Of a stretch of DNA of 42,735 nt, positions 32,035 to 33,578 are shown in pieces (within the stretch, counting starts at the first letter, position 1; every line of letters begins with the position of its first letter). Position numbers and translations under genes: made by a program. Under the pieces are notes generated by a model. The model ran no database searches, was not told where the DNA came from, and saw only the letters and a program-made list of their open reading frames with translations. The stretch lies in assembly GCA_029907315.1 (NCBI GenBank), contig JARYME010000015.1:1-42735 (forward strand), read 5' to 3'. The DNA comes from Armatimonadota bacterium (GTDB lineage: Bacteria > Armatimonadota > UBA5829).

Positions 32035-32162
32035 TCGGATGCACCTACAGTGTCTTATGGCGGCACTAAGCAGGGTCTTTTTAGGGTTTGTGAGTGTGAC
32101 CCGTGGTTCAAGTTTCTGGGTGCCGCTTAAGGTTGAAGTTCACTGTCAGATATTGTCACCAG

Positions 32163-32190
32163 GCTCTCGCTAAGGGAGTTGTAATTTTTT
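32163..32190 (+). terminator. Possible weak intrinsic terminator
   Basis: GCTCTC (32163-32168) can pair with GGGAGT (32174-32179), including two G-U pairs, followed within five bases by a run of six T. It lies 130 bases after the secreted-protein gene and just upstream of the TTGACA box of the next promoter. The stem is short. Confidence 0.35.
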
Positions 32191-32201
32191 CTTTTTACCC
32201 C

Positions 32202-32230
32202 TTGACAGCTCCGCGACCTTGGGGTAAACT
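32202..32230 (+). promoter_or_regulatory. Sigma70-type promoter of the PEP-CTERM protein gene
   Basis: Perfect TTGACA (32202-32207), a 17-base spacer and TAAACT (32225-32230). A T-rich tract just upstream (about 32185-32197) could serve as an UP element. The predicted transcription start is near 32237, which leaves a leader of about 225 bases before the ATG at 32462. Confidence 0.75.
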
Positions 32231-32236
32231 GCTCAC

Positions 32237-32461
32237 CAGATGAGGTGGGCGAGCTTGCAACTGCGCACTTACTGCAGGAGGCGAGATGCTCGCCCGCGGA
32301 TGTGCGGTGCGTCGGGTCGATGAGCCGGCGAGCTCGTCCGTAACTAAGTGGCTCGATGGGCGCACAGTAGAATCAGGTAGAGGAAAGGAGAGGGTTTCTC
32401 GGGTGCGTAGAAATTGCTTCCTCTCTAGACATAGTACCAACGAGGAAAGGAGGGTCGATAG
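32237..32461 (+). promoter_or_regulatory. Long structured 5' leader, candidate cis-regulatory RNA
   Basis: The leader contains mutually exclusive hairpins. GCTCGCCC (32288-32295) can pair with the distal GGGCGAGC (32247-32254) or, through CTCGCC, with the adjacent GGCGAG (32280-32285). A closing stem TGTGCG/CGCACA (32301-32306 with 32361-32366) encloses the hairpin GATGAGC/GCTCGTC (32319-32325 with 32332-32338). The 11-mer GAGGAAAGGAG occurs twice: at 32380-32390 and at 32442-32452, where it is the ribosome binding site. TTCCTC (32418-32423) can pair with either copy. It was not recognised as a known riboswitch class. A 27-codon ORF starts at 32240. Confidence 0.5.
32240..32323 (+). CDS. Possible leaderless short upstream ORF (27 residues)
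   Basis: An ATG three bases after the predicted transcription start opens a 27-codon frame ending in TGA at 32321-32323. The encoded peptide is Arg-rich and resembles no known family. There is no Shine-Dalgarno, so it could be translated only as a near-leaderless message. Ribosomes on it would disrupt the first hairpins of the leader. It may be chance. Confidence 0.2.
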   Translation: MRWASLQLRTYCRRRDARPRMCGASGR

Positions 32462-33148
32462 ATGAGGAGAGTTCTAGTTCTCATGGCCGTGCTTGCAATG
32501 GTGTTTGTCGCAACTTGTTGCGCGAGCTGGGCCGCCGCAGATTGGAGGCTCACGCTCACACAAGGCGTTTGGCAGTCTGGAACCGTATACTGGATGGGGT
32601 CAAACCAGGATGTTTATGCAGGCGCCCTGAAAATGAAGGTTGACAAATACGATGCCGGACATCAAAACATCATCCAGACGTACTACAGCTGGATGTACTG
32701 CATTGACAAGGCATGGTACGATCCAAACGATTGGTACGAGCGTCAGCAGGGCGGAATCCCGATCAACAACATCCCTGATTTGAATGAGGATAAATGGGCT
32801 CGGAAGGTATGGCTAATCAACCGATACGGATGGAACAGCTGGCTTGATGTGGACAAGGCAACCGGCCTTCAGCTGGCGATATGGGAGGTTATTACAGACG
32901 ATACGCTGGACCTGAATGCCGGGAATTTCCAAATAGTCAGCGGGTATTCGACGGCCGCAATCAGCTATGCTAACACTTTGTTGGGCCTCGTTCAGAAGGC
33001 TTCACAGGCTGAGATTGCTGCCGACATATACTACGTCAACGACCAGAACATGAACGAAGTTCCTCCCATTCCCGAGCCGTTCACGCTTGTCCTCGCGACG
33101 CTCGGAATCGGTACGGTGGCAGGCTTGCGCAGGCTTGTGGCTCGGTAA
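32462..33148 (+). CDS. PEP-CTERM-anchored surface protein with candidate Cys-Gln thioester domain
   Basis: A 228-residue product with a signal peptide (VLVLMAVLAMVFVATCC), a mature domain and a C-terminal sorting signal: PEP at 204-206, a hydrophobic helix (FTLVLATLGIGTVAGL) and a basic tail RRLVAR. PEP-CTERM proteins are processed by an exosortase; none is in this window. The mature domain has MYCIDKAWYDP (Cys80) and, 57 residues on, TGLQLAIWEV (Gln137), preceded by KVWLINRYGW. Cys...Gln with QLAIWE is the pattern of thioester domains, which form an internal Cys-Gln bond and attach covalently to host or matrix amines. AAAGGAGG precedes the ATG, and a strong terminator follows. Confidence 0.83.
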   Translation: MRRVLVLMAVLAMVFVATCCASWAAADWRLTLTQGVWQSGTVYWMGSNQDVYAGALKMKVDKYDAGHQNIIQTYYSWMYCIDKAWYDPNDWYERQQGGIPINNIPDLNEDKWARKVWLINRYGWNSWLDVDKATGLQLAIWEVITDDTLDLNAGNFQIVSGYSTAAISYANTLLGLVQKASQAEIAADIYYVNDQNMNEVPPIPEPFTLVLATLGIGTVAGLRRLVAR

Positions 33149-33213
33149 GCTCTAGGCGTTGTTTCTTTCGGGTTCAGCGCTGAGAGCGCAAGCGATTGGA
33201 TCTGAATCGCGAA

Positions 33214-33242
33214 GGGGTCGGTTCTCCCGACCCCTCTTTTTT
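33214..33242 (+). terminator. Rho-independent terminator of the PEP-CTERM gene
   Basis: GGGGTCGG (33214-33221) pairs with CCGACCCC (33227-33234) around a five-base loop, followed by TCTTTTTT. It lies 66 bases after the stop codon. Confidence 0.9.
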
Positions 33243-33316
33243 GCCTGTGCCGCCGGCAAAACTAGTTCACCCCGTCCTTGATCCCGTGTCCGGGTATTCT
33301 TCGCTTCGATGAAGGG

Positions 33317-33341
33317 GATCCTGAATCGAGTTCAGGATGAC
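33317..33341. repeat. Single palindromic intergenic repeat, inverted relative to the adjacent array
   Basis: ATCCTGAA and TTCAGGAT form an 8-bp inverted repeat around three bases. Read on the minus strand it matches the consensus of the neighbouring units (GTCATsCyGAACTnGATyCrGsATC), so it is the same repeat family in opposite orientation. Confidence 0.7.
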
Positions 33342-33368
33342 GTTTTTCGGTACGTCAAGTGAAGCGAG

Positions 33369-33578
33369 TCCACCCAGGATCTGATTCGCCATCCATCAGT
33401 CGCCCAAGGAGTCATGCCTAAATTTATGTGCCATCCACCGGACGCTCGCGGTGTCATGCCGAACTTGGTTCACCGTTTGTAGGCTGGCTAAGGACTCATG
33501 CCGATCTTGATTCGGCATCTGCCAGGCGCCTACGGGGTCATGCCGAACTTGATCCGGCATCCAGGAGTTTGTCACTCA
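33369..33578 (+). repeat. Tandem array of five palindromic repeats with a 42-bp period
   Basis: Units begin at 33369 (degenerate), 33411, 33453, 33495 and 33537, each exactly 42 bp apart. Each has a core of about 23-27 bp like GTCATGCCGAACTTGATCCG followed by GCATCCA. The cores at 33495 and 33537 are good palindromes (ATGCCG with CGGCAT) and the others are decayed. The remaining 15-19 bases per unit differ. The core resembles REP-like repeats found between genes in many bacteria. Confidence 0.75.

Follow-up and report, generated by a model that had tools for sequence, protein, structure and literature searches.

A conserved leader RNA motif ahead of genes for proteins with off-consensus PEP-CTERM tails in one family of Armatimonadota

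Most of what is known about how PEP-CTERM proteins are regulated comes from Proteobacteria and their sigma-54/PrsR sites (PMC1569441, PMC9850573). The regulatory region described there comprises a motif 1 and a sigma-54 motif 2, together with PrsK/PrsR (Haft et al. 2006, PMC1569441), and a site of the PrsR class consists of a promoter with GG at −24 and GC at −12 preceded by a motif 1 that ends in TTTACA (PMC1569441); such a sigma-54/PrsR regulatory site has been tested for pepA (PMC9850573). As already pointed out in the 2006 paper, regulatory motifs outside this class remain to be found (PMC1569441). In this regard, a stretch of 42,735 nt from an Armatimonadota bacterium (contig JARYME010000015.1; hereafter the window) carries, ahead of a gene for a secreted protein, a real, conserved and undescribed leader RNA motif. 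Like the PrsR system, it represents a candidate cis-regulatory sequence shared by many single-gene PEP-CTERM operons, with long leaders and a link to exopolysaccharide and exosortase genes. Unlike the DNA enhancer and sigma-54 promoter of that system, it is a stem-loop located 3′ of a TTGACA/TATAAT-type promoter in a different lineage, and the promoters found here, of the TTGACA-17-TATAAT type, do not show the −24/−12 signature of the PrsR class.

On the RNA side, the motif resembles the riboswitches and orphan cis-regulatory motifs of Rfam in being a short conserved stem-loop, near the ribosome-binding site, in the 5′ leaders of functionally related genes. It differs from the Rfam riboswitches in being confined to one family and in matching no Rfam family even at permissive thresholds: Rfam 15 gave no match in the window at the gathering threshold and none up to an E-value of 5 in 32150-32500, in keeping with the initial annotation of this leader, which had recognised no known class. 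A further likeness is to protein-bound translational operators such as CsrA sites and ribosomal-protein leaders, where a hairpin near the start codon is present in several unlinked genes. Unlike CsrA sites, however, the element has no consistent GGA loop motif; such a loop occurs in only two of the loci described below (P and Q), and a CsrA-type site was rejected on inspection. None of the papers found in the literature searched links PEP-CTERM or exosortase to such an RNA motif.

The regulated gene of the window encodes a 228-aa protein whose match to the thioester domain TED (PF08341) scores 15.3 bits (E 0.028) against a cut-off of 22 bits; a paralogue that is 40% identical (locus P below) reaches 23.2 bits, above that cut-off. 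Its promoter matches 10 of 12 positions and keeps both hexamers identical in the single close orthologue, in the congeneric genome G002, which confirms the promoter that had been proposed ahead of a leader of about 225 nt. This length follows from the promoter at 32202-32230, from whose position transcription is predicted to start near 32237. The features of the locus are the following:

32180-32196: A/T-rich stretch directly 5′ of the promoter
32202-32230, forward strand: sigma-70-type promoter, with TTGACA at 32202-32207, a 17-nt spacer and TAAACT at 32225-32230
32245-32297, forward strand: 5′ domain, a long hairpin GTGGGCGAGC/GCTCGCCCGC enclosing CTGCG-CACTTAC-TGCAG
32280-32294, forward strand: competing local hairpin GGCGAG-ATG-CTCGCC, which cannot form together with the distal helix of the 5′ domain
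32307-32365, forward strand: recurring element, made of helix P1, GGGTCGATGAG, an apical hairpin and GGCTCGATG
32307-32313 and 32359-32365: helix P1, GTGCGTC with GGCGCAC
32314-32324: conserved strand GGGTCGATGAG
32319-32338, forward strand: apical hairpin GATGAGC-CGGCGA-GCTCGTC
32350-32358: 3′ internal strand GGCTCGATG
32380-32390, forward strand: putative first Shine-Dalgarno-like copy, GAGGAAAGGAG, proposed from the sequence and the comparison of loci
32414-32424, forward strand: TTGCTTCCTCT, invariant in the G002 orthologue
32442-32453, forward strand: Shine-Dalgarno site GAGGAAAGGAGG of the window gene, of which AAAGGAGGGT is conserved in G002
32462-33148, forward strand: regulated gene for the 228-aa secreted, thioester-domain-like protein with the off-consensus tail PEPFTLVLATLGIGTVAGLRRLVAR
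33213-33235, forward strand: intrinsic terminator of the window gene

A protein search of related genomes and GTDB contigs returned only that one close orthologue, too few sequences for an analysis of covariation, and motif searches were therefore adopted. The sequence CGTYGGGYCGATGRG is common to the window leader, the leader of the paralogous gene in G000:C122 and its G002 counterpart. A blind search with this pattern in 15 genomes of the family returned four leaders, one chance match in EF-G coding sequence and a further leader, Q in genome G011, which carries GCGTCGGGTCGATGGGCTGGAGTCTGTCCGATGGACGC ahead of a different PEP-CTERM-like gene. A covariance model built from five leaders (R1) then recovered the leaders R (G008, E 3e-6) and T (G001, E 0.016), both ahead of genes with such tails, while its other weak matches lay nearly all in open reading frames. 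The rebuilt model R2, in which R and T were included after R1 had found them, retrieves its own seven leaders at E 2e-11 to 3e-9, with the next match at 0.003 in coding DNA. Since R2 contains the seven sequences that it matches, only Q, R and T, found by genome-wide scans blind to genes, count as independent evidence. A diverged eighth copy, V, was located by synteny in G004. Altogether, eight copies in six genomes of one family occupy four unrelated locus types, namely W (the window gene and its G002 orthologue), P (the C122 type), T and the syntenic Q, R and V, and all eight stand in the leaders of genes with an off-consensus PEP-CTERM tail. Outside the family, neither the search of 291 genomes of the phylum under stricter filters nor a GTDB-wide pattern scan of contigs gave a further leader, and with a 20-nt pattern at three mismatches across the phylum chance matches swamp the signal. 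Covariance-model matches outside the family, together with the EF-G match in G001, were discarded, nearly all lying inside coding frames and none before a PEP-CTERM gene.

The proteins of W and P are related to each other (40% identity) and those of Q, R and V are weakly so, whereas between groups the likeness lies mainly in the tail. A C-terminal PEP motif, a hydrophobic helix and a basic end make up the architecture of all the regulated genes, with tails reading PEAST, PESTT, PEPFT or PEPIS, compared with the PEPGS/PEPSS form of most other PEP-CTERM proteins of these genomes. Against the PEP-CTERM family PF07589 (cut-off 20.7 bits), P, Q and R score 13.7-15 bits, and W and T give no match. 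Having such a tail does not by itself imply the element, as two genes have the tail without it, one next to Q and the other following P. The genes of Q, R and V adjoin an exosortase, EpsI and glycosyltransferases, and R and V also a polysaccharide export gene. Two exosortases are encoded in most genomes of the family, as a rule a short one accompanied by a separate EpsI and a long one measuring 540-630 aa (loci G000:C21 and C46, G008:C21 and C22, G011:C66 and C117), and the element-bearing Q, R and V genes lie near the short type with separate EpsI. In G002, the counterpart of the P gene (G002:C15, L021 about 3720-3690) is split by a mid-gene frameshift, either an assembly error or a pseudogene. 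Directly 3′ of the T gene there is a gene for an ECF-type sigma factor (L277 3522-4205, G001:C325) with Pfam sigma-70 regions 2 and 4, a possible regulator.

The core of the motif folds as a stem-loop of roughly 40-65 nt, in which one outer helix is conserved and a strand GGGYCGAU is nearly invariant. The initial annotation had closed a second multi-stem unit of the leader by 32301-32306 and 32361-32366, where TGTGCG does pair with CGCACA, although the homologues favour the slightly shifted helix P1 at 32307-32313/32359-32365. Across the eight sequences 94.6% of the cells of helix P1 are paired and three pairs have changed on both sides, the variable loop segments of W and T having been removed by hand before alignment so that the arms align. 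Its covariation score lies far above slid controls and was equalled by 1 of 500 shuffles, in a test that ignores the relatedness of the sequences. With only eight sequences from four locus types this covariation is thin, and we take it as suggestive, not conclusive. The arms of helix P1 are separated by about 26 to 55 nt, and the apical hairpin folds with a sequence that differs between loci. For the inner part two pairings fit equally well, one of GGG(U)C with (GG)CUC leaving GANG bulged and the other of GUCGA with UCGAN; copy V keeps neither, its inner 3′ strand being lost. The z-scores of the individual elements range from −0.6 to −3.8.

Selection on these leaders is apparent from several comparisons. 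The window protein and its G002 orthologue share 77% of their amino acids and fourfold sites are identical at 31% (saturated), against 75% identity in the leader, with an identity of 81% in its 5′ hairpin region, and 57% in the intergenic DNA 5′ of the promoter; both hexamers are also kept, so that the leader, from this promoter on, is under purifying selection. The strongest evidence of conservation is that between R and V, whose proteins share 36% identity and whose fourfold sites are 25% identical. In this pair a block of 143 nt, beginning with the upstream promoter element TGTTAGAATTACT and running through the promoter to GGGTCGATA, is 87% identical, compared with 41% in the 200 nt upstream and 38% in the rest of the leader. 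In the same line, the P-locus leaders P1 and P2 are 87% identical versus 50% upstream. Judged by these alignments, the leaders are under strong selection, and to this extent the initial annotation of a real, selected and structured leader behind a conserved promoter stands, but the part that recurs is 32307-32365 and not the strands at 32247, 32280 and 32288 on which it had centred.

On balance, we think it probable that the motif is a lineage-restricted, undescribed cis-regulatory RNA element that tags some of the exported proteins carrying an off-consensus PEP-CTERM tail. In P, Q, R and T, 27-38 nt separate the element from the start codon, against 93-96 nt in the two copies of the window type; measured from the inferred transcription start in W, P, R and T, its position shifts between about 67 and 146 nt, and each copy is oriented alike with respect to its gene. 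Such anchoring to the start codon, the constant strand and the variable spacing of the arms favour an action on the mRNA over a DNA operator, and the element probably acts near translation initiation. Among seven leaders the element does not consistently sequester the Shine-Dalgarno site, and no masking helix is common to them; the accessibility of this site is 0.2-0.7, mostly through pairing with coding sequence and with no shared hairpin. Given that the window leader also lacks an intrinsic terminator, the element may be the place on the mRNA where one shared trans-acting factor binds, in all likelihood a protein rather than a small molecule or an sRNA. Its binding would change translation initiation or mRNA stability, expression would depend on the pairing of helix P1 and on GGGTCGAT, and the element-bearing proteins would be made together with the exopolysaccharide/exosortase machinery. 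A more ambitious proposal, which we regard as doubtful though worth stating, is that this is the first described post-transcriptional control element of a PEP-CTERM/exosortase system, an RNA-level regulon tag through which one factor (protein, sRNA or signal molecule) sets the output of a dedicated subset of surface proteins with variant tails, matched to a second exosortase in the exopolysaccharide locus. What is at hand is a defined RNA motif, for which exact coordinates, a covariance model and a set of genes are given; it is tied to an off-consensus sorting tail and also, in the case of one locus type, to an exosortase/exopolysaccharide locus. Should the element act through a shared factor on the mRNA as outlined above, it would add a post-transcriptional layer to the biology of exosortases, and an uncultured lineage would offer a regulon open to testing.

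Part of the same evidence could be read at the level of DNA, with transcription-factor operators in the early transcribed region accounting for both the conservation and the inverted repeat. In R/V and in the P-locus leaders the conservation does continue from the upstream promoter element into the leader, and the arms of helix P1 are an inverted repeat in the DNA as well. We nevertheless hold this explanation to be unlikely, given the variable spacing of the arms, the varying distances from the transcription start given above, a distance to the start codon that hardly changes among the measured copies other than the window type, and the same direction of every copy.

The initial annotation had seen in the mutually exclusive hairpins of the window leader the hallmark of riboswitches, attenuators or thermosensors, and the pairings on which it relied are exact. 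The strand 32247-32254, GGGCGAGC, is the perfect complement of 32288-32295, GCTCGCCC, forming the 8-bp distal helix of the 5′ domain, and GGCGAG at 32280-32285 pairs with CTCGCC at 32289-32294 in 6 bp around a 3-nt loop. Only 19 of 4000 dinucleotide shuffles contained a strand able to pair over 8 bp with a distal partner and over 6 bp with an adjacent one, in a comparison made after the pattern had been seen. The two conformers are predicted at −31.3 and −27.0 kcal/mol in one orthologue and at −32.3 and −28.0 kcal/mol in the other, the local hairpin thus lying 4.3 kcal/mol above the minimum in both, a persistence which rests on two sequences and is compatible with a switch. Within the 5′ domain, 32257-32278 is invariant in the orthologue but for one base. 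A metabolite riboswitch or other shape-changing device, in which 32288-32295 would swap partners and so expose or hide the ribosome site, could also draw on the two Shine-Dalgarno-like copies with the conserved TTGCTTCCTCT downstream, and on the near-invariant internal strand of the element, which may be typical of binding pockets. On the other hand, the exchanging region is confined to the window gene and its G002 orthologue, and a 5′ domain common to the loci was rejected, none being shared. The alternative pairings show no independent compensatory changes between the two sequences. Neither result that the initial annotation had named as contrary to it emerged: helix P1 covaries to some degree, and no promoter turned up near the ATG. 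In V, conservation does not extend to the 3′ side of the putative pocket, and with neither a terminator in the window leader nor consistent Shine-Dalgarno sequestration across loci the three proposed classes stay conjectural. A shape switch is thus possible and unproven, and as an account of the motif we rate it improbable; a locus-specific 5′ domain with alternative pairings, added in the window gene, may modulate the element.

Returning to the preferred reading of an element acted on in the mRNA, the window type may include a further layer of control, because its leader holds an additional block between element and start codon with the second Shine-Dalgarno-like copy and TTGCTTCCTCT. The GAGGAAAGGAG copy would occupy the site of the sole Shine-Dalgarno in the other loci, and TTGCTTCCTCT could pair with either copy in the window, a pairing that is not compensatorily kept in G002. 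A further reading is that translation is coupled by a leader peptide or upstream open reading frame, such as the GTG frame of 20 codons that starts at 32403 and overlaps the start codon in the form ATGA; the frame is open in the window behind a Shine-Dalgarno-like copy and differs from the orthologue at several synonymous positions, but in G002 it runs into the main gene rather than ending there and the other loci have no counterpart, which makes this a very remote prospect. That the leader is an ordinary GC-rich sequence with incidental folding agrees with its overall stability, unremarkable at −82 kcal/mol (z = −1.28, with 21 of 200 shuffles folding equally well), and is strongly disfavoured by leader conservation against saturated fourfold sites and by recurrence at four unrelated locus types.

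Some minor observations concern the same DNA. Either of two adjacent GTGCG copies at 32302-32311 can base-pair with CGCAC at 32361-32365; the first has a further CGCAC partner at 32264-32268, within the loop of the 5′ hairpin. All these copies and partners are invariant in the orthologue and could bridge the two domains. In this family, a AATTACCTGNTTT-like sequence 10-25 nt before the −35 hexamer is common to many PEP-CTERM genes. In the PEP-CTERM leaders L094-L152, L274, L161 and L032, a sequence like AATTACCTGNTTTT or AATTACYGGTTTTT stands about 10-25 nt before a TTGACW-17-TATAAT promoter, and the A/T-rich stretch 32180-32196 of the window is a weak version of it. This pre-promoter sequence is likely a site where an activator acts on a PEP-CTERM regulon that falls outside the class described for Proteobacteria. 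Finally, the intergenic DNA 3′ of the window gene (33260-33570) contains recurring phrases such as tcatgccgaacttgatccggcatc, which resemble dispersed short repeats.
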